Shown here: positions 34,509 through 62,460 of the stretch, piece after piece
How the letters are laid out: every line of letters begins with the position of its first letter
Numbering within the stretch: the first letter of the stretch is position 1
Source: Polytrichum commune
Lineage: Eukaryota > Streptophyta > Polytrichopsida > Polytrichales > Polytrichaceae
Assembly (NCBI GenBank): GCA_950295325.1
Contig: OX485803.1
Coordinates: forward strand, 9,362,001-9,426,000
Length of the DNA stretch: 64,000 bases
Direction of reading: 5' to 3'
The notes under the pieces: model-generated
Database searches by the model: none
Seen by the model: only the letters and a program-made list of their open reading frames with translations
What the model was told of the DNA's origin: nothing
Position numbers and translations under genes: made by a program

Positions 34509-34518
34509 CTCTCCGGAC
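34509..34518. repeat. Target-site duplication of element 1, left copy
   Basis: CTCTCCGGAC here is repeated exactly at 46249-46258, immediately outside the other end of the element. A 10-bp duplication is within the 8-11 bp range of Mutator-like elements. Confidence 0.9.
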
Positions 34519-34690
34519 GGGGAGTGCTATCTTATGAGCGGTGAGCGATGAGCGGTAACTTATGAGCAGTGAGGAAGATGAAAATTTTGGTAATATGGCC
34601 ACCAATATCCTATAACCGTGGAATTGTGGCCTTAAAAATGATGATTTTAGGGTTTAGTAATAAGAGGGTTGAGAAGGATAAACAACATGA
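34519..34690 (+). repeat. Element 1 left terminal inverted repeat and subterminal region
   Basis: The first 45 bp or so pair imperfectly with the right end and consist of GTGAGCGRTGAGCGG-type units. The next 120 bp (including CCTATAACCGTGGAATT) are conserved with the left end of element 2 (47600-47790) but not with the right ends. These are likely transposase-binding and promoter or terminator sequences. Confidence 0.8.
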
Positions 34691-34701
34691 AGTCCAAATA
34701 T

Positions 34702-37700
34702 TTATTCATCACTAGTAGCACTAGACATGAAACTATCTTTTGCCTCGTCATCTATATATATTCGAGCACCTTTGCATTGCGAATTGATTTTGGAACTATA
34801 GCAAGATTCTTCATTTGGATCCGAATCTTCGATATTCAACATTGCAATTGCAACATTCTCGGCATATGATGGGAGACGCAGGCTACGGCTTGGACTTCGT
34901 AGGAATTGTCTATGTGCCCAAAACGGGAGACATGTCCTCTTTCCAATCGTATTCCTGAAATCAAATCGATGAAACATGTAAATAATGTGAAGAAATAAAA
35001 ATGAACCAATGAATTGAATGAAACGAATGAATTGAATAAAAATTTATTGTATCAAAACTTACTCACACTCAAATTCAAGCATCTCCTCATCCGAGAGGTC
35101 ATCATCTTCTTTTGTGAGATCTTGTATATTCTCCTTAGATGACCCCTCTTTCAAAATCTTTTCCAAAAGCAGTTTCAATATGTGCTCAAACATGTCATTA
35201 TCACCCTCAAATGCAAGAAGATGTCTGCCACATGCGCGTGTTGCTAGGATAGAAGCTCCAGTGGAACATGTCAAATCAACAACGCGTCCATTCGATGGTG
35301 TAAACAATTCAAATAAGATCTTGAAAAAAACGCGGCGATTTTTTATATGGCCCCCTCCAAGGTCTTCCCGATTTTTGAAAAAACATGTTTTTTTCATCCA
35401 CAAAATTGGAAAGCAAGTTTTTGCTTTTCAATCCAGTGCCAAAAAAAGTGGAGTTTGGTTGTCTCGTGGATTTTGTGGTAGTAAAATCCCTTACCAAGAC
35501 ATGAGTCATAAATGCCAGAGTCTACAAAAAAATATAAATTGTGTTAAAACTATATACAATGCAAATAACACCAAAATTATTAAATAGAAACAATTGTGAT
35601 GTGTTATACTTACGGTGTACGTTGGAGACTCCGGATCCTTGAACACCATGTACGAATTGAGGCAAATAAAAGTCCTAAGAACTTTCATGTTGCCGTTGTG
35701 TAAGGTTGAATTCAAAACCTTCTTGGATTGCATATCGATAGCAGAAAATACTATGAGGACGCCATCATCAGACAAGATGGACTTGCACAAGGACATTGTT
35801 GCAACCATCCAGTTCTTGTCATATTTATTCCAAAGAGGAATTTCAGCAGGTCTATTGGAGAGGTTGAAGTCAAGACCGTCCAGAAATTGCAGAAAAACCA
35901 AGTCAACGGCAAATGGAGTCGGATTTTCCATGACATGAAATTCACGATTGTCTTTGAACTGAAATACCACAACATATCACAATATAAGACACAAAATAAA
36001 ATCCAAATGAAAGTAAGAACATTACAGAAAATACAAAATGAAGATTACTTACATTTTCAAGAAATGCCCGCCATTGGATCCATTTAGGAGGGCCTACTTC
36101 AACCCCTTCAGACTTGTTCTTCACAGCAGTAGATCGAGCAAAAGAGAGCGTGAGAAAGTTCTTTAGTATGAATAATTATTTTTTCAAAACATTCGTTGGC
36201 GCACGATGAATAGCGTCATAGGTGCTCAAGTAATGAAATTCCAATACATCGCACCCGGATATTGAACTTTCGCCTCCAAGTGTATTCTTATCCAAATCAT
36301 TGGAAAAAACAAGCAATTCTTCATGTTGCAAAATTTCCGATTGACCTTGTATTTTGGTTTCAGGAACATATTTTCTCTTACGACGTTTTGTCTCTTTTGG
36401 TACTAGCTTTCTAAGTTTAAGCTGCACAATTTGTGCTTGCAAAATTGCAGTATCACGAGGATCTACATTTTTGGCATCATTTATCTGACGGATTGTCTTC
36501 TCACTTGACAGACATGCATCCCTAGGACAATCAAGATACCAACCACAATCCTCATAGTGTGGGAGCGACCAATCCAAACAAATCTCTGTAGTGAACATGC
36601 ATGAGTCTTCCGCACCAGTGTCACGCCAATTTGGAAAAAAACGAGGTTCCCCTATAACGCATTTGTGTGAAATTAAAACATATCGGAAATACCTACACAC
36701 AAAATTATTATGAACCAAATTTTGAATGAAAAGTAAAATATAATGAAAAAATATCAAGAAATAGTAAAGAGTAAGTTGTACCTGTATAGAACACGCTTCA
36801 TAGCAAGATCAATATTCGGTTGCTCATCCTAAACGTTGTGTTTTTTTACTTTTCCGCTTTTGAATTCACAATAGAATATTAAATTGAAAGCCACAAACTT
36901 CCTGGTTTGGATATATTCGGAGAGAGTAGACACATCTGCAGGAAATTGAAGAGGAGATAAAAGAATACTTTGAAGCTCTTAAATAGTTTTTTTCTCTAAC
37001 TGTGCCCAATATATAGACTTTGATAACCAATCATCAAGTGCAGAATCAGAGAGGGGTGATTTCGGGAAATGCAATGCATCTTTGTCAAATCTATTGCCTT
37101 TCCTAAGCTTGAGCCATCCGACTTTGACATCTGGATCCACATTATTAATAGCAACATGATGAAGTTTCTCTTATAACATTTCAGGCACCGAAAATGAACC
37201 CCAATGGTGCTTAACTTCTTCAAGAAAAATAGGGGTGAGGTTGATGTCAACAATCGCTAGTTGTTTTGTAAAACTAGAAGACAACATTGCACGTTTTTTG
37301 TTGACAGCTGCGGATATTGCTTTAGAAACTCCTTCTGAAGTTCGTTCAAGAGGATGGGTTTCATTGTAAAGGTTGAGAGCAATATCGCTAGCCTCGGCAA
37401 GTTCTTGCTGAAAAATCAAACAAAATCCAAAATTAATAAGTACATATAGATGTGATGTAAATGAAAGATAAATAAGCATTAAAAACATAGTAGGAAATGC
37501 TAGAAAAACTTACACTGTACATGTAATCAAGAAAAATTGGCCGCGTTAAAGAATACCAAGTTTCAACGGACTTCTCCTCACATCGCTTATAACTTCTAAG
37601 ATCCAGTTGTTTTTTAAAAGAAATCAAAGGCATAGTGCCAATACTTTGCATCCGATACAAAGTATGCACCAAATTGGTAGAAACGTGAGAGTTTTCTGTT

Positions 37701-38535
37701 GATCTGAAAAAATATTGAATTCATGGATTTAGGATGATATAATTCAAATAACAAAATACAAACCAGAAATAAATGAAAATAAAGAAGTAAGAGCATTACT
37801 TGTTGATGTCGTGCATAGCAGTCAACAAAGTTGGAATGTCATCAAGCCCGAGCGCCAAAATGATGGAATCCACAAAGACATGACGCTCGTAATATTCGGT
37901 ATGCAAGCGATCAATATAACTTTTCCAAGCAAAAAATCTGTGATTACCATCCCATATGAAGAACATCTTGTTCTTGTATGATGTAAATGAAGGATCGGCA
38001 TCTAATTCAGTTTCAAACACCGCATTAGCTTGAACCCAATTAGGGCTCTAAGATGCACGAACCTCGTCATCCACAAATTGAAAATTTCCCTTAGAGTCGG
38101 TAGCCGATAGATAAAACACACGGTCACCATCACGATAACCATTGAAAAAGTCAGCCTCCAATTTAGTGATGTCGCCTTTCAAAGCAGAACGCACAATAGG
38201 CATCAGAACCATGCGACATAAGGGTACACGCTAACGAGATTTCGGTCCAGCACGGATTGAAGAAATTGTTGAAGTGGAATTAACCTTTCGCTTGTCCGTA
38301 AGCTCCCATACTTTCTGTTGATAGGTTTTATTATTACCATCGTTGTCTTCATCGGAGTCAAAATCATTGAGGGGCTCTTGTAATTTTTTCTTTTTCTTAT
38401 TGTTATTGTGAAGGTTTGATGAGATGTCTTGATCATGATGAACTTGTTTGGATGGACGATCTTGAGTTGAGGTTTTTGTGGAATCATCATCCGTGGAAAG
38501 AGGAACTGATTTCTCCACATCTATTGTTTGGTCCT
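34702..38535 (-). pseudogene. ParB-like plus beta-class DNA methyltransferase-like cargo protein (element 1 copy)
   Basis: The exon model on the minus strand is 38535-37800, 37703-37514, 37407-36782, 36692-36053, 35958-35614, 35521-35063 and 34954-34702, all with GT-AG junctions and preserved phase. Exon 1 starts with a charged, low-complexity tail and then the ParB/sulfiredoxin-like domain, with signature WDGNHRF at 37954-37934 corresponding to the GERRWRA-type loop of ParB. A helical middle and a Lys/Arg-rich linker follow. The methyltransferase part has motif IV position QFLDG (35889-35875) in place of DPPY, then GRPWRG and motif I VVDLTCSTGAS near 35277, the motif order of beta-class N4/N6 methyltransferases. 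Defects are in-frame stops near 38232, 38050, 37168, 36960, 36825 and 36176, and one frameshift near 35330 in a T run. The protein is recognisable from the parallel copy in element 2, but is only distantly similar to it. Its role is unknown; DNA binding or modification within the element is inferred. Confidence 0.7.
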
Positions 38536-38644
38536 AAATACAAACAATGACATAAATCTTAGAAATCTTCTTGATGTAGTATCTTCTGAAGGTATTTGAT
38601 TACATAAGAGAACATACTTAAAGGTGTAGAGAAAAAACAGTACT

Positions 38645-38856
38645 TATACCAACAGCAATACCAACACCAACAGTAGAAGAACAGCACAAAACAGGATAGC
38701 ACCACATCCAGCCAAACAAACAGCAACACCAGCTCCAGCAGTAGGAACAGGAACAACAACACCAATAGCAGCAGGAACAGCAACACCAGCACAAACACCA
38801 GCAGCAGCCCCAACACCAGCAACACCAACACCAACACCAACAGCACCAACACCAGC

Positions 38857-38887
<31 letters not shown>

Positions 38888-38925
38888 CCAATAGCAGCAG
38901 CAGCACAAACAACAACAATAAGAAC
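38645..38925. repeat. CAACAC/CAG-type simple repeat
   Basis: Irregular microsatellite of AAC, ACC and CAG triplets (consensus near CAACACCAACAC). It creates long artificial leucine-rich or Thr/Pro-rich open frames on the two strands, which I do not treat as genes. It lies just upstream of the cargo gene. Confidence 0.85.
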
Positions 38926-39155
38926 AATATATTAGTATCTGAACTAATACCACCTAAACCAATAGGAACAACACTAGAAGTAGTAGCAACACATGAGCAA
39001 AAACAAAAGAAGAAGAGCAGCAATGGCAGCAGCCACCACAACAACAAAGAACCACCAACAAGAGGAAGAATGACCAAAAAAAAATTTAAGGTGTGACTTT
39101 GGTAGTTTAAGTAGTGTGTGATTAGGGTAGCGGCTTACCCTAAACAACTAGGGTA

Positions 39156-40702
39156 GACCCTGTGCGTTAACGCACAGGGTCTACGCGCCTAGCTTTGAGG
39201 CCTACCAAAGTTGCGGGCGTAGACCCTGTGCATTAGCGCACAGGGTCTATGCACCTGACTACATATGTATAAAAGTTGCTAGCGCAGGGTCTATGCCAAA
39301 GGTTTGAAATTGGTAGATTTGCCAAAACTTGTAAAATCTATAAATAATACTAATCGTCTCCGAAAAAAAAAAATACATATTGTAAATTATCTAAATCTCC
39401 ATGGCTACAACTTTCTCTAATATTTTTTTGTGTTTGATATCGTTTTCTTTACTCATTCTTCTATCTATTTCATTGTTTTTGGCCACCACGTAAATTTTGG
39501 ATTTCTAGGCACAAAAAAATATTTCACTGTTTTTGGTCATTTTTTAGCTCCTGTCACATACTACATGAATATTTCAGTAGGCATATTATTCATTTTTTAC
39601 ATTCTAACCCCATTTTGAACAAATTTTTAGTTTCAACACTTTACATGACATTTTCAATTTATACAATAGCTATTTGTTTTACTTTTAGACATTCTAAGTC
39701 GCTGGTACATACCCTGTGCGTTAACGCACAGGGTATTCCATCCTAAATTTTAACCTTCTAAGTCGCTGCCTAATACCCTGTGCGTTAACGCACAAGATTT
39801 TCCCTCCTAACTTTTTACCTTCTAAGTCGCTCCCTAATACCCTATGCGTTAACGCACAGGGTTTTCCCTCCTAATTTTTAGGGTATCTAAGTCGCTCCCT
39901 AATACCCTGTGCGTTAACGCACAGGGTTTTCCCTCCTAACTTTTAGGGTATCTAAGTCGCTCCCTAATACCCTGTGCGTTAACGCACAGGGTTTTCCCTC
40001 CTAACTTTTAGGGTATCTAAGTCGCTCCCTAATACCCTGTGCGTTAACGCACAGGGTTTTCCCTCCTAACTTTTAGGGTATCTAAGTCGCTCCCTAATAC
40101 CCTGTGCGTTAACGCACAGGGTTTTCCCTCCTAACTTTTAGGGTATCTAAGTCGCTCGTACATACCCTGTGCGTTAACGCACAGAGTTTTCCCTCCTAAC
40201 TTTTAAGGTATCTAAGTCGCTCCCTAATACCCTGTGCGTTAACGCACAGGGTATTCCATCCTAAATTTTAACCTTCTAAGTCGCTCCCATATACCCTGTA
40301 CGTTAACGCATAGGGTATTAGGGAGCAATTTACACAGCGGAAACAACCCCGTGCGTTAACGTACAGGGTATTAGGGAGCGACTTAGAAACCCTAAACAAC
40401 CATGTGCGTTAACGCACAGGGTATTAGGGAGCGACTTACACAGCGTAAACAACCCCGTGCGTTAACGTACAGGGTATTAGGGAGCGACTTACACAGCGTA
40501 AACAACCCCGTGCGTTAACGCAGAGGGTATTGGGGAGCGACTTAGTAACCCTAAAAGTTACAAGGGAAAACCTTGTGCGTTAATGCAGAGGGTATTAGGG
40601 AGCGACTCACATATCCTAAACAACCCTGTGCGTTAACGCACAAGGTATTAGGGAGCGACTTAGAAAGCGTAAACAACCCTGTGCGTTAACGCACAGGGTT
40701 TT
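39156..40702. repeat. Array of about 18 perfect or near-perfect palindromes (TGTGCG-TTAA-CGCACA core)
   Basis: The core is flanked by CCC on the left and GGG on the right, making a perfect 22-bp palindrome. Copies begin near 39156, 39221, 39712, 39776, 39840, 39905, 39970, 40035, 40100, 40165, 40230, 40294 and 40348, then every 53-63 bp to 40678. From 39776 to 40230 the unit is a strict 65-bp tandem repeat with the spacer TCTAAGTCGCTCCCTAATA. Beyond the palindrome at 40294 the spacer is inverted (TATTAGGGAGCGACTTA), so the array is a mirror image about that copy. It sits between the divergent cargo and transposase genes. It may be a protein-binding array; it is not a CRISPR, because the spacers are repeated. 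Confidence 0.9.
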
Positions 40703-40826
40703 CCCTCCTATCTTTTAAGCTTTCTAACTCGTTGTCAGAAATGCTTTTCGGGTGGGCCGCCGATATTCCAAGGATTCACTACTCTCATACCATCGACAAA
40801 TGTATAAAAGCGTAAGAAAAAATGGT

Positions 40827-41020
40827 ATAGACATCCACCTATGGATGCGAGTTGTCTAAAGAAACTGATGTTTCGGTCTGCTCCAACTTGGGTTCGAATC
40901 TAGTTGGTTGCATTGACTGGTGCTATCCCCTAATGAGCTAGTGGTTAGGCAGGAAATACAGTAGGTTGAATACATAGAAGGCTTTCCTACGCAAGTGTGC
41001 ATAGATCCTTCTAAATAAAG
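40827..41020 (+). repeat. tRNA-derived SINE, plus orientation
   Basis: It starts GACATCCACCTATGGATGCG and carries a good RNA polymerase III B box, GGGTTCGAATCT, near 40890. About 190 bp align with the reverse complement of 45565-45770 and 61731-61937, including TTGACTGGTGCTATCCC. The tRNA-like part cannot fold as a working tRNA. This copy is the most diverged of the three. Confidence 0.7.
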
Positions 41021-41098
41021 TTTTTGTTAAATTGACTACTTTGAACAAACTAAAGCATATGCCCAACAATATCGTTGATTTACGTTGAGCTGACTTAC

Positions 41099-41512
41099 CT
41101 TTTTGTTTGTTGTCTTCTTTGAACTCGTCTTCATTTCCGACTCCGATATACGATCGTCTGCATGTGCACCTTCATCACCCTCCATCATATCAAAATCCAG
41201 TGCTTTCACAGTTTCTACTATCGTATTCAACATGTTTATTTTCCCTTCGTTGTTTGCATTCATCTTTCCTACACTCAGTCCGAACCTCTTTTTCTCAGAA
41301 GTAAAATACAAAGCTTTCCTACACCTTCTCTTCGGCCTCACGGGTGTTCTCTCTACATCCTCCACCATCGTTGGTGTCTATAATGTGTCCTCCATCAGTC
41401 CACTATCATTTATTTTTCCAATGTGTCTATCCCACATAAATCCGGTGTATATTACGATCATTCATGTTGCAATTGGCGTCCAATGAACGAAATATTTCAA
41501 CGCGTCTTTCAT
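41099..41512 (-). pseudogene. Exon of an unrecognised cargo protein, element 1 only
   Basis: From ATG at 41512-41510 one frame runs to a GTAAGT donor at 41098, with in-frame TGA (41464-41462) and TAG (41380-41378). It begins MKDALKYFVHWTPIAT; its middle is basic (VRPKRRCRKALYF) and its end acidic, then Lys-rich, suggesting a nuclear protein. I recognise no domain, and element 2 has no visible counterpart. It is divergent from the transposase start, about 270 bp away. It may be the first exon of a gene whose next exons lie across the palindrome array, or a captured host fragment. Confidence 0.45.
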
Positions 41513-41717
41513 TTTGTTTTTATTTTTATTATAGGGTCCAAAAGTTTCTGACACCCTAGCCTCGCTGTTTTGTGTGTATCTTGCTTGTAAATATTCTCTA
41601 ACTATTATTGTGATATGTTTACTTCCATATTATTAGATGCTATGGTATCACACGCTTTCATCACCATCCATTATTGTATCACGCGTTTTCAATTTCATTC
41701 ACTTCATCACACACCTC

Positions 41718-41725
41718 TATATAAA
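41718..41725 (+). promoter_or_regulatory. TATA box of the element 1 transposase
   Basis: TATATAAA lies 58 bp upstream of the transposase ATG at 41783, a suitable distance for a short plant 5' leader. Confidence 0.55.
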
Positions 41726-41782
41726 AACAACATTCACCCAAAAATTTTGTGATGTCTTGTTCAATTCATCTTTTCATTTTTC

Positions 41783-44700
41783 ATGGCTACCATTAGAGCT
41801 CATGGATCTTTTGTTCCCTTCATTTTTCCACTTCAAGATGATGGTCATGTGAATGTTTCAGAGGATTTACTTAGTTTGAGATTCAACCTCCAGATAAGCT
41901 CCATGTATTTAGAGCAGGAGATGTACTCTACAGATGGAGAGGTATATGAAACGATTTTGGTTCAAAAAAACAGAACAGAGGTTGGTTTTATGTGGATCTT
42001 AGGACCTGGTTCATATAGGGTGATAAGTCTTTCTGAGTCTCAGATGCAAGCTTCTACTGTCATATTGACAAACGAATCCGGTACATCCACAGTTCAAATT
42101 CCCTCTACCGCACATGTTAAGGTAGAACCCCTTGATGATAGTGTGTTTGTGCTATCGGATTCAGAAGATGACATTTGTGCATCTGTTGATCTTTCAAACA
42201 CATCGCCGTTTTCATTTAAAGGTGTTCATTCTACTCCTTCGTAACTTCCTATACATGTATCCAAATCTCCTTGCGGTCTTATGTACAAGAGGGTGGTTCC
42301 CCTAATCTCACCCTCTCAACGTCCTCCACTACACCCTTCACCTTCATCTACAGGGTTGACTATAGTTGATGCCTTGAAGCTAACAAAGTCAAGAAAAAGA
42401 TCAAAGTCAGATCTCGCATCCATTGATTTTGATAGTATAGATGTTCGTGATGGCAAGTACTTACCATCTTCTTTTAATGGTGATGTTTTGTTTCTCTTAC
42501 CCCCTGTGGCACTTAAAGTCCCAAGTATGTATGGCCGCTCAATGGATGGCATGGACAAGATGTGCGACGGTCACCCTTGGTACACCACCAAAACCACCAA
42601 TATCCAAAATGATTTTGGATTGTCCTTCCGGTGCTCTACTTGTGCTGGTCATCTCCAATGTCCTAATGACTCCTGTGATTACATGAATCGCAATGGGGGC
42701 CTCCGGAACAACACTAAATGGGCCGGTTCAACTCCTCTCCCATTTGTTGTGGGTAATGTTCCTCCCACTAGGTCCACTGTCGAGTGTAAGGTATGTCGTT
42801 CCACACCTGTGTGCATTGCTTCATGTCATGCTCGAATCATATACATCCACTTCACATCTGTTGGAATGTCCAGGGCTTGCATTCATATTGGTGTACATGA
42901 TCACCCTGTGGCCAATGGCACAAGCCGTGAGTCATTGGACATGGCATACCAGTGCGTTGCAAATGAAGTATTGAAAACACCCACAGCCAAAAATTCAGCC
43001 ATAGTTATGGCAGCAAGCAAATAATTCTTGGCCGATTATCTTCTCAAATCTCCCGCAAATATCGAAGGCCATCACTTGGTTGGTTCATCCCTGGAGGTCG
43101 TCATGGACAAATTCAGCACTCTTGCGTCTCCGAATTGTCGTAACTTTGTATTTGGATCAAAGTTTTTTTTGCGTAGTGAAATGAGAACTATGGATAGTAT
43201 TATGGCGCTCAAAGACCACTCTGCTTTCAAGTTCGTCCATGGTAGTCGCTTTCCAGGGCAGTCAAAGGACAAAGTGTGTGTTTTTAAGATGTCTGTAGAC
43301 CTTCCAGGTAGTGGTGTGGAGCTTGTGAAGAGGATGCAAGTCGGTGGGAACATGGAGAATTCATGGATTATGTTTGACCATGTCAAACGTTTGAAGGACT
43401 GGACGACCATGGCTTGCCATGTGCAGGACAGTCGATACTGTAAAGTGTTGACTATTGCGTGTTGTGACATGCAATCTAAAGATGGTGCAGCACAAATTCT
43501 CTTTGGGGAAAATTTAAATGCTGTCATGGAAGAAAATGGTGTACCAAACATAAACTTCAAAGGATTCATGGCTGATAGTGCTCAAGCTAATTGGAATGCG
43601 GTGAGGGCGATTTACGGGGATGGTAATCCAAGTTTGCCCATGGTTGCACGTGAGCGTACATGTCTTTTCCATTGGTCTGCAAGCTTGGATAAGGTGACCC
43701 AAAAGTATATCAAACCATCCTTGCAGTTTCAACACAAACAAATATGCAAGGATTACAAAGACGCGAAAACAATGGATGACGCTGAGACTAAGTACCATGT
43801 GATTCGTTCTTGGTGGTTGTCATCTGGAGCTGCCTCGGAAGAAGGCATCCTTCGCCTTTCAGAGTGGTTGGAATTTTGGCACTTTCGTTATAGACAATGG
43901 GGTGGTCATATGCTACTTGTAAGTACATATCAAACTTCATTATTCGCTGTCATTCAATATCTTGCCACTGATATATAATATATCTTATGTTTTTCTTATC
44001 CTTGTATTTGTGTGTTGTTCATAGGATATGACAATAGAAGAGCGTGCGGAAATGCCAACATGCAACCTTGCAGAGACTGTACACAACAAATGGCTCCAAC
44101 AGTCCGGCAACAAAATGACTTGTTTATATGAAGCTATAGTGGACGACATGATCCGTGCCTTCATGCAAATTGCAAATTACCGGACATGGTTGAAAAGGGG
44201 GTTTGATGGTAAAGGTCCTGATTCAGCATCCTTGAAACTCAAAACGGCTGCCAGGTGTGGAGATCCAAAAATGTTGACCGATGCCGTGAAGTCTTATCCA
44301 GGGGCAGAAGACGTCAACACTAGATATTGTGCATTGGAAGGGTCAAAGCTCTTTGGTTCCACCAAACGCAAATTCAACCTACCACCGGGTGCTGATTGTG
44401 ATTCTCATCGACCCGACAAAGTAAACTATTCCATTCCTCGTCCCAACACCCAAGCAACTCGTCAACGCATAGAGGAATCGTTGAGTTCTGCAATTCATGG
44501 TGTGGCTCATACTACATCCGTGTTAGAGACAGATTATCTTGCTTCCAAGTGGCACATTGCAAGATTACCACCTAACTCAGCCAAACGATGTTGGGCATTG
44601 CAGGCCATCACAGGGACTATGTGCAATGCCAAAGTCAGGATTGGGAAACATGGCACACCTGCTCCAACATACAAAGGGCTCAGGAAGGAATTTCGCTCTC

Positions 44701-45377: not shown

Positions 45378-45564
45378 TATTGCAAATGGTCTATTAAGTA
45401 CCATATATTTGAATGTCAAAATATGACATGTTTTGGTTTGGATTTTTATAATAAAAATCAGCAATGGGCTGGAAGTATTTTAAATGATTCAGTAACTTCA
45501 TTTCTATTTAGACTACGACCCAACCGTGAGCGGTTTGATTGATTGACATGGATAAATAATAACA

Positions 45565-45770
45565 AGTTTCTAAAAATAAAAAATAATTGAGAAGATTCTA
45601 TGCACATCCGCGTAGTAACGTCTTCTTGGTATCCGCCTATAGATTATTCTTGCTTTATCACTAGCTCAATTTGGGATAGCACCAGTCAATGTAACCAACC
45701 GGATTCGAACCCGGGTTGATACAGACCTAATACCAGTCTCTTACACAACTCGCATCCACAGGCGGATGTC
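45565..45770 (-). repeat. tRNA-derived SINE, element 1 3' copy
   Basis: On the minus strand it starts GACATCCGCCTGTGGATGCG, has the B box GGGTTCGAATCC near 45715-45704 and ends in an A/T-rich tail near 45565. It sits at the same place as the copy in element 2 (61731-61937), so it was inserted in their common ancestor. Confidence 0.75.
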
Positions 45771-45834
45771 TCAAAACCTAGTAGTTACCTACATATTGAC
45801 TATTTTTAATATCTAATTTCCTTTCATTTGTAGA

Positions 45835-46248: not shown

Positions 46249-46258
46249 CTCTCCGGAC
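46249..46258. repeat. Target-site duplication of element 1, right copy
   Basis: Exact repeat of CTCTCCGGAC at 34509-34518. Confidence 0.9.
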
Positions 46259-51200: not shown

Positions 51201-52604
51201 TAATCAAAATAAAAATGAATAAAATACTTACATGTTGATATCATCGCAGAGACATGTGATAACAGAGTGATTTTCTTTTCGTCCATCAAGGATTATCGAT
51301 GTAGGGCTTATATGATATTCAACACCACCTAACTTCATCTCTTTGGTATTGTACCACGCTTTAAAGCGATGATTTCCATCCCAAATGTGAAACATTTTAT
51401 TTTTGAATGCATGCAAACCATGCTCTATCAAATAGGCTTCAAATTCTTCATTTTTTTGTTTCCAAATTTCATCCCATTCATTCACAATGTCATCATTGAC
51501 ATCAATCGTGTATCCCTCTTCATGCTCTACCGAGACATAAAATGATGCAGACCCAGGAATATAACCATTGAGAAACGAACGTGACAAAATTGATACATCA
51601 TCGTCCAATGCGGGCCTAACCACCTCCATGCCAATCATTCGACACAAAGGGATAGGCACAGGATATTTCATGAGACATATATCACTCAATGTCGAGTTTA
51701 TTTTTGGTTTTCGTTCCAAGAGTTTCATTCTCGTGTACTTGATGGATTTCCCTTCATGTTCAGCTGGGTTCTCCAATGTAGGCGGAGGTGTCCATAATCC
51801 TTCATGAATATTATTTTTTCCACTCTGCACAATATTCATGTATGTAAGAATATAAACCTAATAATAATAGAGAATATATATAAATTAAAAAAATTCAAAC
51901 CGTTTAATACAAATAAAAATAAATTTTACCTTCTCTTTTTTGCGACGATTAGTTACACCTTCAGAAGGTCCACCAATAAATTGAGATGTAGATATTGTCC
52001 CTTGAGACAATGTCAAAGAATGTTCTTTATGCTGTGATCATTGATTCACAAGAGAAAATTGTTGTTCTTGGAATTGTTCAGTATATTGAGAATCTGGTGT
52101 CTCCTGAAATTGTTGATTCTTTGGAGAAGTTTGTGTCACTTGAAAGTGTTGATTCTCTTGAGAGTCTTGTGTATCATCATATTGCAGATTGTCTTGATTT
52201 TCTTGATGCGATTTCTCTAAAGTGGATTCCTTAATAACTTGTTCTGCAACTAAATCCACAATATTATCCACAATTTTTGTTGCAACATCTTCAGTGATAT
52301 TTTGATGTTGTCCCAAAAGTGGCTCCAATCTTTGCGACAATGTCATTGTATTTTCTTTAGAATGGACTTGTGGTTAATCGTTTGAATGCATGGAAGATGC
52401 ACAATCTTCTTCCACTGTTTCAAGACCAACATCAGGTTGAAGTCCCTTGATGCGATGAGACCTTCGCGTAAGGGTGGAGTTTTCACCTTGTCTTCTTTTC
52501 CTAGTTGTTGATTTAACGCCTTGTTGATGAATATTTTGTATTCTTGGCGAGAGAGGTTGTAACGCATTGGAGGATGGGTCTTTTTGTTTTTCTTTAGGAA
52601 ACAT
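48272..52604 (-). pseudogene. ParB-like plus beta-class DNA methyltransferase-like cargo protein (element 2 copy)
   Basis: Exon model, minus strand: from ATG at 52604 to 51930, 51824-51232, 51115-50918, 50817-50414, 50271 to about 48598, and a last exon to TGA or TAA near 48272 joined through GAATA/GTGAGT. The N-terminal region is basic and then Gln-rich. The ParB/sulfiredoxin-like domain (51660-51235) carries VPIPLCRM and WDGNHRF (51383-51363). A region shared with element 1 contains WLKLW and ALDPWL, then GGGWYLDLPNG. The methyltransferase part has VDIPDG (49375-49361) where DPPY is expected, then GQPWRGAKEKNP and motif I LDLSVGTGAS (48834-48808) with HIFGFEAD after it, the AdoMet-binding pattern of the beta class. 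Defects are TAA at 52376-52374, TGA near 52038, and frameshifts near 50640, 50140 and 49197. Function and target are inferred only. Confidence 0.75.
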
Positions 52605-52738
52605 ATTTTCTGCAAACAAAAAACATAAATGAAAATGCAAAAAAAAATGATAGAAATAACTTCATCGTATATATATTTCAAAAAAATACATAATGGATTT
52701 TACAAATCCAATATTTTATTAATATAAAAATGTATAAT

Positions 52739-54235
52739 CTATTTCCGACGTTTGGAAGGGATTTCATCATCACAATCAATTTGACGACTATGAATTCTAT
52801 TCCGTTCTGGTAGAGTAAGATAACGTTGCCGGATGTGTTTGTTGAAGGAAAAAGTATGAAAATCTGGTTCGTGAGACAATCGATTCATGACATCAGCAGG
52901 GGTCATGCGAAGCTCCGTGGTCGAAGTGCATGACATTCGACGAATACAATGTAGCAAAAGATTATAAGAACGAGAATGAATGACTTTGAGATATATTGGA
53001 TCGACATATAAACCCCAAATAGCCTCTGCAATCTTTGATACAGAATATGACTTTGTCTTTTCAGTGTGGCACGGACGAGCATTGTGGTCTTTGGTGAAGA
53101 ACAACTCAGGATCTACCTACCAACGTTCTTGGAGCCTAGAATGTCTCAAAGATTCAGACTGCGAGAAATGATTTGAATGTCGTCTATCCGACGATATTGT
53201 TGCCGATCCCCAATCACCAATGCCTATGTGAATTTCATCTTTGTCATCCATCTCACCAAAATGGAATAAGATGTTTGTAAAGGATAAATCACAATGAAAA
53301 ACATTGTGAATGGTGAGTACATCGGCCATGATTTGAATGAAGGTGATCGCAAGGGTACAACGGTTTAACAAAAAAAACCTTAATCGCTCCAATTCTTGAT
53401 TCTTAGAGATTTGTTCTGGATGATTTTTCTTGAGTATTGTGAGACGTTGAAAAAAATCATACTTATTAGTTCCATGGTCTTTGACACTTTTGAACATATC
53501 TCCCAATGTCCCATCATTCCAATAAGGCAAGAAGATAGCAGGTGCGGGTGTCGTTTGGAAAGCAAACAGTTTGATAACACCACCATGATCTATGGATGCC
53601 ACTGAATACAACTCTTTCATGCTTGCATGATGAGGATTTCCATTATGATCCAAAAAACATTTAATGGCATATGGTACGAATGGATCAGTATCTGAATTGT
53701 CCTTAATGAAACATTTCCACACCACTCCATATAAACCACGGCCTAGTCGTTCATACTTCTCAATAACAACATCTCTCCAAACAAAAAGAAAAGCACCACC
53801 TCCAGGAATGACGTGTCGATCGACACGGTTTAAATTTTTAACATGAATTTTTCTACGTCTTGAGAGTTGTGGAATCTCCACTCGCCACCGATCGGAGTTA
53901 AATTTTTGCGCTTCTAACTTTTCCAATGTCCAATCATGCGTGACTTTCCGATGCACCTTTGAAACCACATCAGGCATTTGTCCAACAAAATTAGAAGAGA
54001 CGTTGTATTTTTTAGTATTATAATTGGACATTCTTTTGCATGATGGAAAACGTCTCGAAATGCAATCATCAATCATGATCTTCACACGCTCACGCAAAAG
54101 GATAGGGCCGAACATACCCATCGACACAAAATTTTAATGGATTGAGTCCCAAGACATGTCACCCCACCATTCTACAAGGAAGCTTTGCACACTCAAAGTA
54201 ACCATTTGATTAGGCTTATTGAGATGAGGTTCCAT
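52739..54235 (-). pseudogene. Protein kinase cargo gene with two stop codons
   Basis: One frame from ATG at 54235 to 52739 (499 codons) is interrupted only by TAA at 54136-54134 and TAG near 53119. It has a kinase fold in order: Gly loop LGRGLYGVV (residues about 164-172), ATP-binding Lys in YAIKC (about 192), catalytic loop HCDLSFTN (about 314-321, HRD changed to HCD but Asp and Asn kept), GDWG for DFG (about 340-343) and DPE for APE (about 377). Catalytic residues are thus present. The TAG arises from a 3-bp GTA duplication just before the DPE motif. The N-terminal 160 residues are unassigned; an EWWGDM motif recalls LEWWEG in the ParB-methylase gene. No counterpart remains in element 1. 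The direction and 135-bp spacing suggest coexpression with the ParB-methylase gene. The kinase family is unclear. Confidence 0.75.
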
Positions 54236-55000
54236 AGTTGTAAGCAATAATCACCTTGAATAGTTTGTTGACGATGACATCAATGAAAAATGAATACCTG
54301 CATATAACAGTCAATAAAACCACATGAAATTACCATATAGTATGGGTTGTATACTTAATGTTGTAGAAATGAAATATAGGATTTAGATACACATCTTAAA
54401 AGTAAATGATAAAATAGATTGGTACACGGATAGAAGAAAAATATATTATAGAAATACATATATGAACACCTAGGACGTAAGAATGTATTGAACATCCATC
54501 CACGTCTGCTAGGGCCATTTAAAGTTGAATGTAAAAAATCAAATCCAGGATATGCACATGAAAATTATAATCATGTGGACTATACCAGCTGGAAATGATG
54601 GGTACGATGTAATTACACGTCCTAATACCCAGGACGTGAAGAAGCATAAAACATCCATCCACGCCAGCTGAGATGATTTGGAATTTAGAACAAAAGCAAA
54701 GCAAGACAAAAAAAAATAGAACAAGGCAAAAAAAACAAAAAAAAAACAAAACACAATGGAGTCAAAAAATACCTGGAATGAAAATTGATGCCTTGGAACT
54801 TGACACACAACCAGATCGGAGGTGCACTGCTATATATGAAGTTCAGAACATCAATTCAAACAAAATCCAATTATAAACAACAATTCTCAACAACAAAGCA
54901 AAACAGAAGTTGTGAAAATTTTAAAAGCAATTAAGAACAAAATTCAAGCAAATATTAGTAGATAAACCCTAATACATAAATCGAACTACTCCTCATTGAT
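54236..55000. other. Leader and intron-like DNA upstream of the kinase
   Basis: A+T-rich, without open frames of note. On the minus strand three CAG/GTATT junctions (near 54297, 54766 and 55096) look like splice donors of leader exons. A palindromic GGACGTG-type motif occurs near 54470-54640. Confidence 0.35.
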
Positions 55001-55459
55001 GGTTGTGCGCTGGCGCACAACCAGAAAGCAGGAGTAGGGCATAACAAGCTTAAAAACATTGATAGAAGTAAAGAAAAAATAAATGGAAAAATACCTGAAT
55101 AATGGTTGTGCACCAGCACACAAGCAGAATGCAACACCAAGGCAGATGAACTGTAAACTAGAGAAAATAAAATGAAGCCTAAACTAAATGTAAGAACTAA
55201 AGCAAAAAAATTAATTGAAGCACTAAAAAAGGATTGTGCGCCAGCGCACAAACAACTTCCAGCAGAAGGGCGCAACAAATCGTATGCAAATGATAGATCT
55301 AAAGAATAAAGTAAATAAAAATAGTCCTAAGATATTTGTGCGCCAGCGCACAAACAACTCTCAGCAGCAGGGCTAAACAAATCTTATGTAACTGAAATGA
55401 TTGAAAGGAAAAATGAACAGAAGTAGTCCATATGCAGGCTTGTGCGCTAGCGCACAAGC
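55001..55459. repeat. Five spaced palindromes with TGTGCG-N4-CGCACA core
   Basis: Palindromes lie at 55001-55022, 55104-55125 (degenerate), 55233-55252, 55335-55354 and 55438-55459 (perfect, 22 bp, centre GCTAGC). Spacing is close to 103 bp for three intervals and 129 bp for one. The core TGTGCG-N4-CGCACA is the same as in element 1, although the outer bases (TT/AA here, CCC/GGG there) and the centre differ. Flanks such as AACAACTYYCAGCAG repeat, so the array arose by tandem duplication. It lies in the presumed 5' leader of the cargo transcripts. Confidence 0.85.
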
Positions 55460-55557
55460 AGGTCCAACCAGCAACTTCTCTACAAACTTGCTCTCATACG
55501 CAGTGCTAAACCGAAGCTCGCTCATGTAAGTTTGTTGTAGAAACGCCTTCTCATCCT

Positions 55558-55565
55558 TATTTATA
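55558..55565 (-). promoter_or_regulatory. TATA box for the minus-strand cargo genes
   Basis: TATAAATA on the minus strand, preceded by a G+C-rich patch (about 55566-55585) and followed about 100 bp downstream by the first palindrome. It would place the palindromes inside the transcribed leader. Confidence 0.45.
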
Positions 55566-55601
55566 CGCCTCGGCCGTGGCGGCCGTGAACGTGAAGGGGA
55601 T

Positions 55602-55622
55602 TAGGTTTAGGTTTAGGTTTAG
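55602..55622 (+). repeat. Telomere-type TTTAGG repeats
   Basis: Three and a half tandem units of the plant telomere motif, TTAGGTTTAGGTTTAGGTTT. Such telo-boxes occur in plant promoters, and this one is between the two divergent transcription units. Confidence 0.6.
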
Positions 55623-56090
55623 ATTCAGAGGGGAATGAAAGGTTGGGGGGGGGGGAAAAAAATACAAAACCCATAGATTTTAGAAAACTTTAGATAGGTA
55701 TATCTCCTACATATTAAAATTAATTAGCTTGAAATTTTTTTCTCATGGTTACACCCATCATATGTAGTGATATACAAAAAAATTAGATTTTTTTCATTAA
55801 ATTTCAAATTCCTATGAATTTCTAAAAATTCTGAAATTAATGACATCGTAGATGTTTGGGAAATCTTCCTATACGGTACATTTTGGAAATTTTCCGAAAT
55901 CATTTTTTTGCATATGATTGGGGAACATTCTAAGAAGGTTATAAGGTTTAAATCCTTCACTTCCCCAACATCATATAAAAAGTGAAATTATTCGCCAAAT
56001 TGTTATTATCGATTCATATGTATTTGTTCATTATATAACACATTTTTCAATGATGTCCGTGCTCGCGTTTCTTCCGTTTTCATTTAGGAA

Positions 56091-56215
56091 TTCATACATA
56101 TATAGATATATAGATATATAGACATATAGATATAGATATAGACATATAAACATATAAACATATAAACATATAGATATAAACATATAGACATATAGATATA
56201 TAATATACAATAATA
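56091..56215. repeat. CATATA/GATATA microsatellite
   Basis: Alternating ATATAGA and ATATAAAC units upstream of the transposase; no coding value. Confidence 0.8.
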
Positions 56216-56555
56216 TACAAGTAGACAACTCACACTGACAGTCGAAGAATTGATTAGGCCAAACATAGAACCCTAAACCAAATCCAATAAACTATCTCAT
56301 TTGGAAACAAAACCATAGCGAACCCCAATGCACAAGTGAGATGTGGATCTTAAGTCCATGACACCATAAGTCATGTCCATTATAACATTGGGAAGAATAT
56401 ATGAAGAAGAGATTTAACTAATGTATATAACTTAATAAAAATATAAACTATTTAGAATATATATCTACACCCCATTTTTTAGTACATACCATTCAGTATA
56501 ATAATCTCCGCCCATCCAATATTATTGTGACGTGCATCTATTGCTTATTTTCTCC

Positions 56556-59500
56556 ATGGCTACCATTAGAGCTCCCGGATCCTTTGTTCATTTCCTGCTA
56601 CCACTTCAGGATGATGGTTTTGTGTGTGTCTCGGAAGATTTGCTTAGTTTGAGATTCAATCTCCAACTAAGAACCATGTATTTAGAACAAGAGATGTACT
56701 CTGCGGATGGAGAGGTGTATGAAACGATTTTGGTTCAAAAGACTAGAACTGAAGATGGATTTGTATGGATTTTAGGGCCTGGTTCATTTAGGATCATAGG
56801 TCTTTCTGAATCGCAGATGCAAGCTCCAACTGTCTTATTGACCAATGAATCCGGTACATCCACAGTTCAAATGCCCACTATTGCAACTGTTAAGTTGGAG
56901 CCCAATGATGATAGTGTATTGGTGTTGTCTGATTCAGAAGATGATATTTGTGTTGCTGTTGATCTTTCAGACATATCGTCATTTCCATTTGAAAGTAAAA
57001 ACTTTCTCCTTCACTCCTTCACAACTTCCCAAATCCCCATTCAGTCCTATGTGCAACACATTGGTTCACCGTATGACACCTTCTCAGCGCCCTCCATTGC
57101 ACCCTTCACCGTCATCTACAGGGTTGACTATCGTTGATGCCTTGAAGTTCACAAAGTCTAAGAAAAGGTCAAAGTCTGATCTTGCATTCATTGATTTTGA
57201 CAATATAGATGTCCGTGATGTCAAATACTTGCCATCATCTTTTGACGGCGACGTTTTATTTGTCTTGCCCCCTGTGGCACTTGGAGTTCCAAATACGTAT
57301 GGCCGCTCCATGGGTGGTATGGATAAAATGTGCGACGGTCACCTTTGGTGCACCACCAAAACCACGAATATCTAAAATGATTTTGAATTATCCTTTCGGC
57401 GTTCTACTTGTGCAGGTCATCTCCAATGTCCTAATGACTACTGTGATTACATGCATCGCAATGGGGGTCTGCGCAACAACACTGAATGGGCCGGTTCAAC
57501 CCCTCTGCCATTTATTGTGGGTAATGTTGCCCCTACTAGGTCTACTATCCATCGTAAGGTATGTCGTTCAACACCTGTGTGCATTGCTTTGTGCCCTGCT
57601 CGCATTATATACATTCATTCCGCCTCTGCTGGGATGTCCAGAGCTTGCATTTATCTTGGTATACATGATCACCCTGTATCCAATGGTACATGTCGTGAAT
57701 CATTGGACATGGCATACCAGTGCGTTGCCAATGAAGTGTTGAAAACACCCACAGCCACAAATTCCGCCATAGTTATGGCCGCGAGCAAACAATTCTTGGC
57801 CGATTACCTTCTTAGATCTCCCACAATTGGAGAAAGCCATCACTTGGTTGGTTCTTCCTTAGAGGTGGTCATGGACAAATTCAGCACTCTAGCCTCCCCA
57901 AATTGTCGTAATTTTGTATCTGGATCAAAACGTTTTGTGCGTAGTGGAATGGGAACTATGGATAGTATTATGGCACTCAAAGACCATTCTGCTTTCAAGT
58001 TCATCCATGATAGTCGGTTCCCAGGGCAATCGAAAGACAAGGTTTTTGTTTTCAAGATGTCCGTAGACCTTCCGGGCAGTGGTGTGGAGCTTGTAAAGAA
58101 GATGCAAGTCGGGGGAGATATGGAGAGTTCTTGGATCATGTTTGACCATGTCAAACGTTTGAAGGATTGGACGACAATGGCTTGTCATGTGTACGACAGT
58201 CGATACTGTAAGGTGTTGACCATTGCGTGTTGTGACATGCAATCTGAAGATGGTGCAGCACAAACTCTCTTTTGGGAAAATATGAATGCTGTTATGGCCG
58301 AAAATGGTGTTCCAAAAACAAACTTCAAAGGGTTCATGCCAAACAGTGCTCAAGCCAATTGGAATGCGGTGCGGATGGTTTATGGGGACGGCGATCCAAG
58401 CCTGCCCATGGTCGCACGTGAACGCACATGCCTTTTCCACTGGTCTGCAAGCTTGGATAAGGTGACACAAAAATATATCAAACCATCCTTGCAGTTTCAA
58501 CACAAGCAAATATGCAAGGATTACAAGGACGCGGTAACAATGGACGATGCCGAGACTAAGTATCACGTGATTCGTTCTTGGTGGTTGTCATCTGGAGCTA
58601 CCACAGAAGAAGGCATCCTTGGCCTTTTGGAATGGTTGGGATTTTGGCACTTCCGTTATAGACAATAGGGTGGTCATATGCTACTTGTAAGTGCATACCA
58701 CACTGCATTATTCAATGTCATTGAACTTTCCCGTATTTTTTCCATTTATATAAATTTGTGTCTTCTTTTTCTTAACCCCGTATTTGTATGTTGTTCGTAG
58801 GATATGACAATAGATGAGCGTGCAGAAATGCCAACATGCAACCTTGCCGAGACTGTTCATAACAAATGGCTCCAACAATCCGGCAACAAGATGACTTGCC
58901 TGTATGAAGCTACTGTTGATGACATGATCCGTGCCTTCATGCAAATCGCAAATTACCGTGCATGGTTGAAAGGGGGGTCTCATGGTAAAGGTCCTGATTC
59001 GGCATCCTTAAAACTTAAGGCGGCTGCCAGGTGTGGAGATCCAAAAATTTTGGCTGATGCCATGAAGTCTTTTCCGGGGGCAGAAGACGTCAATACTAGA
59101 GATTGTGCATTTGAAGGGTCCGAGCTATTTGGGTCCACCAAACGAAAATTCAACATGCCCCCGGGTGCTGATTGCGATTCTCATCGACCCGACAAAGTGA
59201 ATTTTTCAATTCCTCGCCCTAACACTCGTGCAACTCGTCAACGCATAGAGGAATCGTTGAATTTTGCACAACAAGGTGTGACTCATACTACATCCGTGTT
59301 AGAGATTGATTGTCTTGCTTCCAATTGGCACATTGCAAGATTGCCACCCAACTCAGCTAGACGATGTTGGGCATTACAGGCCATTACAGGGACGATGTGC
59401 AATGCCAAAGTCGGTACTGGAAAACATGGCACACCTGCTCCAACATACAAAGGGTTCAAGAAAGAATTTCGCTCTCCCAACAATGTGGAGTCTGAATTTT

Positions 59501-60167
59501 GGTTCTGCCCTGACGACATCAAGCGTTGTGTGAGTGGTAGTAAGAAGAAATATGTGTTGGATTGGCCTATAGTGCCTAACACTTGGCCGGTGAGGATAGA
59601 CACCAATCTATCAAGAGAGGAGGTGTTGGCGCTTGAGGACGCCGGATTTCAACTACAGCAAAGGGAAGCATTATCCCCCCGTCGTAGGCTTTCTACAATT
59701 GCAACCCTTCCCATCCCTCGCTCGCATTTTCGTATGCCACCCAACCCGGACGCCCACCCTACATTCAGGTTTGGAAAGACAGTTCATCGCAATCCGACCG
59801 CACCGACAGCGGATCACAAAAACAAATGGGAGAGCGCCGGACTCATGGATGGTTATTTTGTAGTTGGGGTGACTGCCATTCCATATCCAGGTTTTGGAGT
59901 GATAATCAACATTGTCTCCAAAGAGGATATTACATACCGTGTCACAATTGGTGACATTCCGCATTGCACATGCCCGGACTTCACGAAAATGTCTCTCATG
60001 CATTGGGAAAGAAAGGAAAATGGGTGTATTGTAAACATCTTTATTATGTGTTTAGATTTTTGTGCAAGGTGGATTACGAGAGTGACAAATTCATTCATGC
60101 ACCTACATATACCTATAATGAGGTCATGCGACTACTTGAACTTGCTGGTATTCTAGAATGTGAGTAG
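56556..60167 (+). pseudogene. MULE-type transposase with SWIM finger (element 2)
   Basis: The gene has two exons, 56556-58686 and 58801-60167, with the same splice phase as in element 1. The N-terminus (MATIRAPGSF) matches. The domains are an acidic N-terminal region, a Cys/His region with GIHDHP, a DDE-like core (CCDMQS, FMPNSAQANW, CLFHW) and a SWIM finger with CTC retained near 59965. Defects are a frameshift between about 56990 and 57055, TAA at 57373-57375 (CAA in element 1), TAG at 58666-58668 (TGG in element 1) and a 1-nt deletion near 59990 that shifts the end of the SWIM region out of frame. The Asp of FMADSA in element 1 is Asn here, a change at a likely catalytic position. Two of the three lesions are C-to-T or G-to-A. 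Confidence 0.85.
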
Positions 60168-60325
60168 TATTGCAAGTGTTCTATTAAGCAACATATATTT
60201 GAATGTCAATAAATGACATGTTTTGGTTTGGATTATTATAATAAAAATTAGCAATGGACTGAAAGTATTTCAATGATTCAGTAACTTCATTTCTATTCAG
60301 ACTACGACCCAACCGTGAGCGGTTT

Positions 60326-61698
60326 TGTGAGCCCAAACTCTGTAGCCACATGTGTTCTCAAGCTGAAAAACACATTAAAACTTAGGTTTGGAGTTTTCAT
60401 CAATTAATTAAAACATAAAAAGTGTGGAGGATTGGAGTTGTGTTAGAATTAACCCTAGGGATAGGAGGTTAGTACTTAGTGTTTGAATAATGAGAGCAGG
60501 TGTAAGGGAATTGACTAGGAGGTGATTAAGGTGGTTCTTAGGCTTAGACCTTAGGCCTTGTAAGCCTGGGGTTTATGTGACTTGAAAATGCTTGGGAACT
60601 GTTCGAATTAGGCAGGTGCCACTGCACCCTAGAAAAGTGCGGATCCAGGGACTCGGACAGGCGCGATTGAGGCCGCCGCTCTCACAACTGAGCTCTCTCT
60701 CTCTCAAACAAGCTAGCAGGGGGAGGGGGACGCTGCCGCCGAGGAGTAAGGCGCTGCCGAATGCGAGGCTGGTGATGGATGTTGGAGGAGTTAGTAGGGA
60801 GCTAGGTGGGTGCCGCCGAGAATGAGGAGGAAGTGTTGTGCCAAGGAAGGGAAGGAGGCTGGAGGCTAAGCTGGAGCAAATGATAGAGGTTGCCGAGGGC
60901 GCAACTGGGATAGGCATTGTTTGAATTCGAATGCCTGGAGGCCTCGGCCTTCCAAAAAGAACTTGGCACAATGCCGCAATGCAGGGTGAGCTGGAAAAGA
61001 GAAGGTGAATTCCACAGGTTGCGACCAACATTGTTTGAACCAAATGGTTCTGAGGGCACTACAACATGACTAATGTGAAGAATGATCAAAATTGAGCGGG
61101 GAAGAGCCCAGGCCACAAGCCTCATTTAAATGGTGAATCAGCACAGAGAGGAGGTTGCACAAATGCGAATTGATGGCTGCATGGCCGAGAGTTGTGGCTG
61201 GGGTCTCAACAGTTGTGAGCGCAGGGGAAGGGTGCTCAGACCAGATAGGCGAGAGCCGCGTGTGGTAGGAAGGGTGCAAGGGATCAGCCTAGCCACGGCT
61301 GGTAACATGGCCGGTAATAGGGCCGGTAATGGCGTTGGTCTAAGAGGCCAGGAGCTGGTTGTGATTAGGCCCAAGGGCATGAAAGGACAACGGCCAACTG
61401 AGAACTAAGCTGGATTAACCGAGTTAAGCTAAGGCAGTAATATTAGTGAAGTAGTGAAGGGTGATAGTTAAGCTAGGAATTTAGGTGAAAAACTAATGTG
61501 TGACTTAATGTGTTGATTCTCACGTTCGTGTTATGACACGCATGAGTATTAGTAATAAAGTAAACGGTTATTCATTATTAAGGGTCACCTAGAGGTGGAA
61601 AGGACCACCATTGGAGGTGGGCATGTTCCAAATTATGAAAGGGTGATCCCCCACTTGCATTACGACGCAGTTAAGGGTGGGGGTGATCCTAGCTCACA
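60326..61698. mobile_element. Solo LTR inserted in element 2
   Basis: Element 1 and element 2 align on both sides (GTGAGCGGTTT, then GATTGATT), but element 2 has 1373 extra bases that start TGTGAGCC and end AGCTCACA, the TG...CA inverted ends of a long terminal repeat. The flanks GGTTT and TGTTT are a 5-bp target duplication with one mismatch. There is no internal coding region, so it is a solo LTR left by recombination. The superfamily is unknown. Confidence 0.8.
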
Positions 61699-61730
61699 TG
61701 TTTGATTGATTCACACGGATAAATAATAAA

Positions 61731-61937
61731 AAGTTTCTAAAAATAAAATAAAATTGAGAAGATTCTACGCACATCCGCGTAGTAACGTCTTCTTGGTATC
61801 CGCCTATAGATTATTCCTACTTTATCACTAGCTCAATTTGGGATAGCACCAGTCAATGTAACCAACCGGATTCGAACCCGGGTTGATCCAGACCTAATAC
61901 CAGTCTCTTACACAACTCGCATCCACAGGCGGATGTC
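61731..61937 (-). repeat. tRNA-derived SINE, element 2 3' copy
   Basis: Nearly identical to 45565-45770, with the same B box and the same position relative to the transposase 3' end. Confidence 0.75.
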
Positions 61938-61999
61938 TCAAAACCTAGTAGTTACCTACATATTGACTATTTCTAATATCTAATTTCCTTTCTTTTGTA

Positions 62000-62121
62000 G
62001 ATTCTGGGCCTTAACTCAACCCGTGAGCGGTTTGAGTGGCTCACAATTATGGCACCTACATGTACGTATAATAAGGTTATGCACCTACTTCAACTTGCTG
62101 GTGTTGTGGAATGTGAGTAGT
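62000..62121 (+). pseudogene. Duplicate terminal exon of the transposase (element 2)
   Basis: Counterpart of 45835-45955: acceptor TTTTGTAG, then ILGLNSTRERFEWL and APTCTYNKVMHLLQL to the TAG stop. It was present before the two elements separated. Confidence 0.65.
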
Positions 62122-62359
62122 TGTGCAAGTGTTGGTTGTAACTACATGTATAAGGATGTCAATAAATGACATGTATTGGTTTGGATTATTATAATAAAAA
62201 CCAGCAATGGATTGAAAGTGTTTTAAATGATCCATGGAAATAGGGCCCTTTGACTTCTGCTTCATTTAAAATATTGGCAATTTACAATTGAAAATATGCA
62301 ATTAATTTGTCAAAATTTTGGTTGTGTACCCTAAACCCGTGTGTCTTTACTAAATTTGG

Positions 62360-62450
62360 ATTCATTGCTCATATGTTACTACTCATTGCTCATGTGTTAC
62401 TGCTCACCGCTCACCGCTCACTGCTCATCGCTCATAAGATAGCTTCCCTC
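62360..62450 (-). repeat. Element 2 right terminal inverted repeat
   Basis: Read inward it is GAGGGAAGCTATCTTATGAG followed by at least five GAGCRRTGAGC-type units, longer by about 45 bp than the same end of element 1. Confidence 0.9.
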
Positions 62451-62460
62451 TCCGTGCGGA
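62451..62460. repeat. Target-site duplication of element 2, right copy
   Basis: Exact repeat of TCCGTGCGGA at 47590-47599. Confidence 0.9.

Follow-up and report, generated by a model that had tools for sequence, protein, structure and literature searches.

Putative Mutator-like elements of the moss Polytrichum commune with a ParB- and methyltransferase-like cargo gene and subfamily-specific palindrome arrays

The closest described systems in overall organization are the VANDAL/Hiun elements of Arabidopsis, Mutator-like elements (MULEs) which carry an extra gene, VANC. VANC proteins bind arrays of motifs in non-coding regions of VANDAL elements, where they lift silencing; these motifs are tandem repeats which vary between related elements, and are located upstream of VANA and in the introns of VANB and VANC (passages of PMC5735166). 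MuDR also associates a transposase gene, mudrA, with an accessory gene, mudrB (sections of PMC6446971). A ParB domain joined to a methylase is found in Bce_0392 of Bacillus cereus (excerpts of PMC5512222), and the DNMT-carrying retrotransposons of Symbiodinium and Klebsormidium bear methyltransferase homologues in many copies, with purifying selection reported for the Klebsormidium genes (passages of PMC5890265). We analyzed a window of 64,000 nucleotides of the P. commune genome (assembly GCA_950295325.1, contig OX485803.1, positions 9,362,001 to 9,426,000), in which two large transposons carry a cargo gene composed of ParB/sulfiredoxin (Srx)-like and methyltransferase-like parts, together with arrays of short palindromes.

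A preliminary description of this stretch had proposed two elements with inverted ends and exact 10-bp target duplications. Both are present at the following coordinates, each with a transposase gene:

34509..34518, target duplication at the left of element 1, CTCTCCGGAC
34519..46248, element 1, 11,730 bp
41753..45374, plus strand, element 1 transposase, interrupted by stops
46249..46258, target duplication at the right of element 1, CTCTCCGGAC
47590..47599, target duplication at the left of element 2, TCCGTGCGGA
47600..62450, element 2, 14,851 bp
56505..60156, plus strand, element 2 transposase, interrupted
62451..62460, target duplication at the right of element 2, TCCGTGCGGA

Terminal inverted repeats are present in both elements (starts GGGGAGTGC / GAGGGAAGCTATCTTATGAGCGG), and duplications of 10 bp are within the MULE range of about 8-11 bp. 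The ends recur elsewhere in the genome: the left end was detected at 11 of the 20 loci that were initially retrieved for a ParB match, and the right end in 7 of the 12 right-end stretches fetched from other copies. At these seven copies the duplication is exact over 10 bp (five cases) or 9 bp (one case), or agrees at 9 of 10 positions (one case). The proposed assignment to Mutator-like DNA transposons relies on the length of the target duplication, on the inverted ends and on a SWIM zinc finger match of the transposase which stays below threshold (Pfam E 0.0089-0.17). This assignment has to be tempered, as the Pfam MULE domain gave no match on pieces of the window or on a partial open frame of 691 amino acids. 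The transposase halves of the two elements are 86% identical in DNA across 3.8 kb; outside the transposase, the DNA comparison shows a match of about 155 bp at the left end. A region of about 1.4 kb in element 2 (60326-61699), close to the 3' end of the transposase, has no counterpart in element 1 and appears insert-like.

In both elements the cargo gene is encoded on the minus strand and transcribed divergently from the transposase. In its predicted product, a helical middle part links a domain of ParB/sulfiredoxin fold to a permuted methyltransferase-like domain. The parts were located as follows (L numbers designate loci fetched from the genome):

34702..38533 (approximate), minus strand, element 1 cargo gene, ParB-like and methyltransferase-like, multi-exon, with internal stops
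35062..35427, minus strand, element 1 methyltransferase motif X-I exon, whose counterpart in L024 has matches among phage DNA methyltransferase profiles
37799..38230, minus strand, element 1 ParB/Srx-like exon
48583..52615 (approximate), minus strand, element 2 cargo gene, with in-frame stops and frame breaks
48586..49305, minus strand, element 2 methyltransferase-like exon part with motifs X and I (Pfam N6_N4_Mtase E 2.5e-5, below cut-off)
49088..50155, minus strand, element 2 exon part with a conserved GWYLD region and a degenerate motif IV (PDG)
51231..51857, minus strand, element 2 ParB/Srx-like exon, open frame, assigned by fold comparison

Exon by exon, the two cargo genes share 24-41% amino-acid identity (32% for the ParB exons), and no DNA-level match between them appears in the comparison which gives 86% identity for the transposase halves. 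The divergent multi-exon gene announced for both elements is thus found in each, with the correction that both window copies are broken: stops and frame breaks affect transposase and cargo alike. The intact copies which the preliminary description suggested looking for exist at the level of exons, other copies holding exons with open frames.

The association of cargo and transposase was examined over the genome (407.8 Mb, 64 contigs). The ParB exon gave 1019 first-look candidates, of which the best 150 were scored, all with E < 1e-22; the methyltransferase exon gave 888, the best 150 of which yielded 152 matches when scored; the transposase gave 2080, the best 125 scored being all at least 82% identical. 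These numbers are lower bounds, and show that genes of the ParB-methylase type are numerous in a plant genome. In 73 of the 125 best-scored transposases, a listed cargo exon is located upstream, on the opposite strand and within 15 kb (ParB in 54 cases, methyltransferase in 57). Random placement of the ParB matches gives a mean of 0.36 and a maximum of 2 in 200 draws, compared to the 54 observed. Element 1 is not counted among the 73, because its own exons are not among the best-scored exon lists. Seven listed pairs within 15 kb are arranged otherwise, at three transposases, two of which correspond to element 1 beside element 2. For six of the 52 transposases that lack a listed partner, the 8 kb upstream were sampled, and the cargo was found in five. 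At the sixth (L030) an adjoining open frame resembles, in its translation, a gypsy-type integrase, and the insertion is probably a nested retrotransposon. Conversely, 13 of the 20 loci that were initially retrieved for a ParB match also show transposase matches (L010, L012, L014, L016, L017, L019-L021, L023-L025, L027, L028), including transposases only 30-44% identical to those of the window. The head-to-head arrangement recurs, and the cargo belongs to the element family, as had been proposed; the opposite outcome, copies generally devoid of cargo, is contradicted by these counts.

The ParB exon is under purifying selection. The ratio of nonsynonymous to synonymous substitution rates (dN/dS) is 0.06 between L018 and L019 (dN 0.061, dS 1.06) and 0.16-0.22 between element 1 and six relatives; the ratios are higher and noisy where pairs are very close or copies broken, reaching 0.92 and once 3.2 at a dS of 0.01. 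A functionless chance capture would agree with the damage of both window copies, and is scarcely credible given these ratios, the cargo beside 73 of 125 best-scored transposases and 5 of 6 sampled others, and its presence beside diverged transposases as well; linkage and selection already contradict it. The same linkage rules out a one-off capture.

Assignment of the ParB/sulfiredoxin-like domain, as put forward in the preliminary description, is supported by fold comparison of a predicted model, in which the ParB/Srx fold is recognized. The G-x-x-R pocket motif agrees with it: DGNHR is invariant in 11 of 11 members, and each residue is kept in at least 90% of 75. Profile searches divided the earlier claim of a ParB and methylase match, the methylase part being recovered by Pfam and PHROG profiles while the ParB exon had DUF1015 as its best Pfam match (E 0.0093, in 1 of 11 members) and gave nothing useful against PDB sequences. 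Among 120 listed of the 202 ParB relatives found, the only organism-named one is a hypothetical protein of Ceratodon purpureus (P0062). Its name, M758_UG129100, and its 112-Mb contig suggest a location on the U sex chromosome of that species.

For the second domain, Pfam N6_N4_Mtase (PF01555) reaches 29.9 bits in L010 (curated cut-off 26.7) with a match spanning motifs X and I only, and falls short of the cut-off with 24.8 bits for the window copy and 13.6 bits for L024, the locus whose methyltransferase exon matches the PHROG phage profiles. The S-adenosylmethionine (SAM) motif is kept in all four subfamilies aligned. In these four, DPPY is replaced by x-[YFI]-P-D-G; P0122-P0126 have YPDG or YRDG in its place, P0129 has FPNG and P0133 MRDG. 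We therefore class the domain as methyltransferase-like only: the SAM-binding motif is kept, the usual catalytic motif is not, and the cargo may not methylate, since DPPY is missing. A working DNA methyltransferase (4mC or 6mA) marking the element's own DNA would account for the above-cut-off Pfam match, the phage profiles and the conserved SAM motif; it is improbable in our view, because motif IV is degenerate. The methyltransferase exon gave nothing useful against PDB sequences. NCBIfam profiles showed nothing close to a cut-off and Rfam 0 matches; 25 stretches of viral contigs fitted a pattern, with no relative confirmed among them, and a tblastn search of phage records gave no match.

The arrays of palindromes, which go beyond the preliminary description, are located in the window as follows:

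39157..40727, palindromes of element 1, CTGTGCGTTAACGCACAG, set in tandem repeats of 65 and 53 bp, with 9 exact copies of the 18-mer
55003..55457, palindromes of element 2, TTGTGCGCNNGCGCACAA, 4 of them exact

A search without preset sequence (arms of 7, spacer of 0-4, at least 3 occurrences) found recurring palindromes in 19 of the 26 fetched loci and in the window. The element-1 type is CTGTGCG-TTAA-CGCACAG and the element-2 type TTGTGCG-CNNG-CGCACAA; other types include GGTGCCG-N4-CGGCACC (L018, L019), TGTCTCG-GNNC-CGAGACA (L026) and CATCTCG-GATC-CGAGATG (L034). All five share the form N5-CG-N4-CG-N5. Outside this form, a second palindrome, TTGGGTCGNNCGACCCAA, recurs at least 3 times in element-1-type copies (L017, L021, L023-L025, L031, L032), and is more numerous than the first in L017, L023 and L024. 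Two or more palindromes of one kind following the five-type pattern are present in 20 of the 26 fetched loci and in both window elements. Chance palindromes are ruled out: sequences shuffled by a first-order Markov model (20 for each) contain 0 to 0.05 on average, none of the five types occurs in the 37.4 kb of the window outside the elements, and the element-1 palindrome has 502 copies genome-wide compared to 0 for the reversed control. The 50 listed sites of this palindrome form ten clusters, and seven of these (29 sites) have a listed match to cargo or transposase no more than 15 kb away. The flanks of the largest cluster without a listed match (14 copies, C1:4875631-4879257) hold the cargo on one side, with a ParB exon 90% identical to that of L023, and the transposase on the other.

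Position comparison shows that these subfamily-specific arrays of 18-bp palindromes sit between the two genes. Both gene starts are in view in 17 elements or loci (elements 1 and 2, L010, L012, L014, L017, L019, L021, L023-L025, L028, L029, L031-L034), and there the counted palindromes all fall between the cargo and the transposase. In L018 (6 of 16) and L026 (2 of 17) some palindromes are downstream of the ParB exon, in apparent cargo introns. In L027 both palindromes lie past the end of the cargo gene, and may belong elsewhere. A common core of L026 and L034 through related cargo was considered and dropped, as the ParB tree does not group them.

ParB proteins recognise short palindromes, the bacterial parS site being a palindrome of 16 bp. 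By analogy, the cargo protein could, like ParB at parS, attach to the arrays in dimeric form and build a nucleoprotein patch on the element; this patch would protect the element and its shared promoter from silencing by the host, as VANC does for VANDAL elements. The methyltransferase part would then more likely be a SAM- or DNA-binding module than a working methylase. Since the anatomy resembles that of VANDAL/VANC (an additional protein, subfamily-specific sequences, and arrays located in the promoter region and in apparent introns), we consider, tentatively and with somewhat less than even confidence, that the most likely reading is a cargo protein which binds to the arrays and either opposes silencing or regulates expression of the element itself.

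Several observations weigh against such an array-binding role. Foldseek with the ParB model gave no match reaching E 0.001. The methyltransferase exons are less constrained than the ParB exon (dN/dS mostly 0.35-0.8, and 1.19 between element 2 and L010 with another cut, one copy being broken), PDG stands in place of a (D/N/S)-P-P-(Y/F/W) motif IV, and the AlphaFold model of this part failed (pLDDT, the predicted local distance difference test, 44). Six of the 26 loci are without a repeated palindrome of the counted form: L015, L016, L020, L022 (a partial stretch), L028 (one exact copy) and L030 (one copy). Elements 1 and 2 have similar transposases and different cargo, and their palindromes share TGTGCG-N4-CGCACA, so that the transposase fits equally as the binding protein; L034 has an element-1-like transposase and yet another palindrome. 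The palindromes could accordingly serve the transposase or a transcription factor of the host as binding sites, unrelated to the cargo. The shared core in elements with ParB exons only 32% identical speaks for such sites; on the other side, the L034 transposase, 83% like that of element 1 in its middle and 58% identical to that of element 2 at its N-terminus, accompanies a different palindrome, and the copies of L018 and L026 are partly in apparent cargo introns. We regard sites of this kind as rather unlikely, if a serious competitor.

The accessory protein of MuDR is thought to aid integration in maize, and mudrB has, to our knowledge, neither a ParB nor a methyltransferase domain. The main rival for the cargo protein itself would be a comparable role as transposition helper, the ParB-like domain nicking or gripping DNA and thus aiding excision or insertion of an element of 12-15 kb. 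The predicted ParB/Srx fold is compatible with it, and the ParB domain of Bce_0392 nicks DNA nonspecifically (excerpts of PMC5512222). A helper leaves subfamily-specific palindrome arrays in the promoter region unexplained, and we hold it to be unlikely. The array-binding reading can also be extended: a eukaryotic transposon may have adopted a parS/ParB-like system, in which a protein derived from a ParB-methylase loads at element-specific palindrome arrays and spreads along the element as a nucleoprotein clamp which blocks silencing or marks the element for transposition, with a palindrome-protein pair for each subfamily and element halves reshuffled between lineages. This extension is doubtful, and a little less probable than the helper.

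Reshuffling of halves is suggested by synonymous divergence. Between elements 1 and 2, the transposase dS is 0.53 over 491 codons and 0.46 over 438 codons, table rows that involve L016 or L017 being left out as they apparently mix protein parts, whereas the cargo is saturated, with proportions of synonymous differences (pS) of 0.80 for ParB (197 codons) and 0.79 for the methyltransferase (90 codons). Linked genes should share a neutral rate; we therefore infer that each half has a history of its own and that exchange brought them together. In the ParB tree, a clade of element-1 and element-2 cargo is not rejected (approximately unbiased test, p-AU 0.42, long branches calling for caution), so that either half may be the one that moved; the idea of a cargo swap is weakened in that tree shape leaves it unproven, its evidence being the contrast in synonymous divergence. 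L016, a badly broken copy, points the same way and would fit separate histories: its cargo is 74% identical to that of element 2, its transposase 33-48% to those of elements 1 and 2.

Compared to described systems, the moss elements resemble VANDAL/Hiun MULEs as putative Mutator-like elements with an extra gene and in the arrangement of their motif arrays, and differ from them by a ParB- and methyltransferase-like cargo, 18-bp CpG palindromes and inverted ends. Unlike Bce_0392, the moss cargo is eukaryotic and multi-exon, has a degenerate motif IV and resides on a DNA transposon with a palindrome array. The DNMT of retrotransposons are C5-cytosine enzymes, in contrast to the N6/N4-type domain with ParB found here on an element with inverted ends. 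The likeness to ParB-parS partition systems concerns the predicted ParB fold and the short palindromic sites. Nothing on Mutator-like elements with ParB or adenine-methyltransferase cargo, in moss or other plants, was found in the literature searched; the words "methyltransferase" and "moss" are both missing from the available portion of a 2026 review of plant transposon gene capture (PMC13317346), and "methyltransferase" from that of a MULE survey (PMC6446971). If the array-binding reading is true, this would be a second, independently built plant transposon with its own sequence-specific DNA-binding regulator and matching arrays, made of bacterial-type parts, and a possible source of sequence-specific tools for altering chromatin state. 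With its high copy number and its five or more types of palindrome, such a family would open the rules of recognition and silencing escape to direct tests.

The element-2 subfamily has an additional gene between cargo and transposase, which, like the arrays, was absent from the preliminary description:

52739..54133, minus strand, protein kinase gene (Pfam Pkinase E 2.5e-8)

It is present in L009-L014, the six closest fetched relatives of element 2, with remnants in L015. Between the two elements, the sequence at 46259-47589, as judged from its letters, resembles a remnant of a Ty1/copia retrotransposon.

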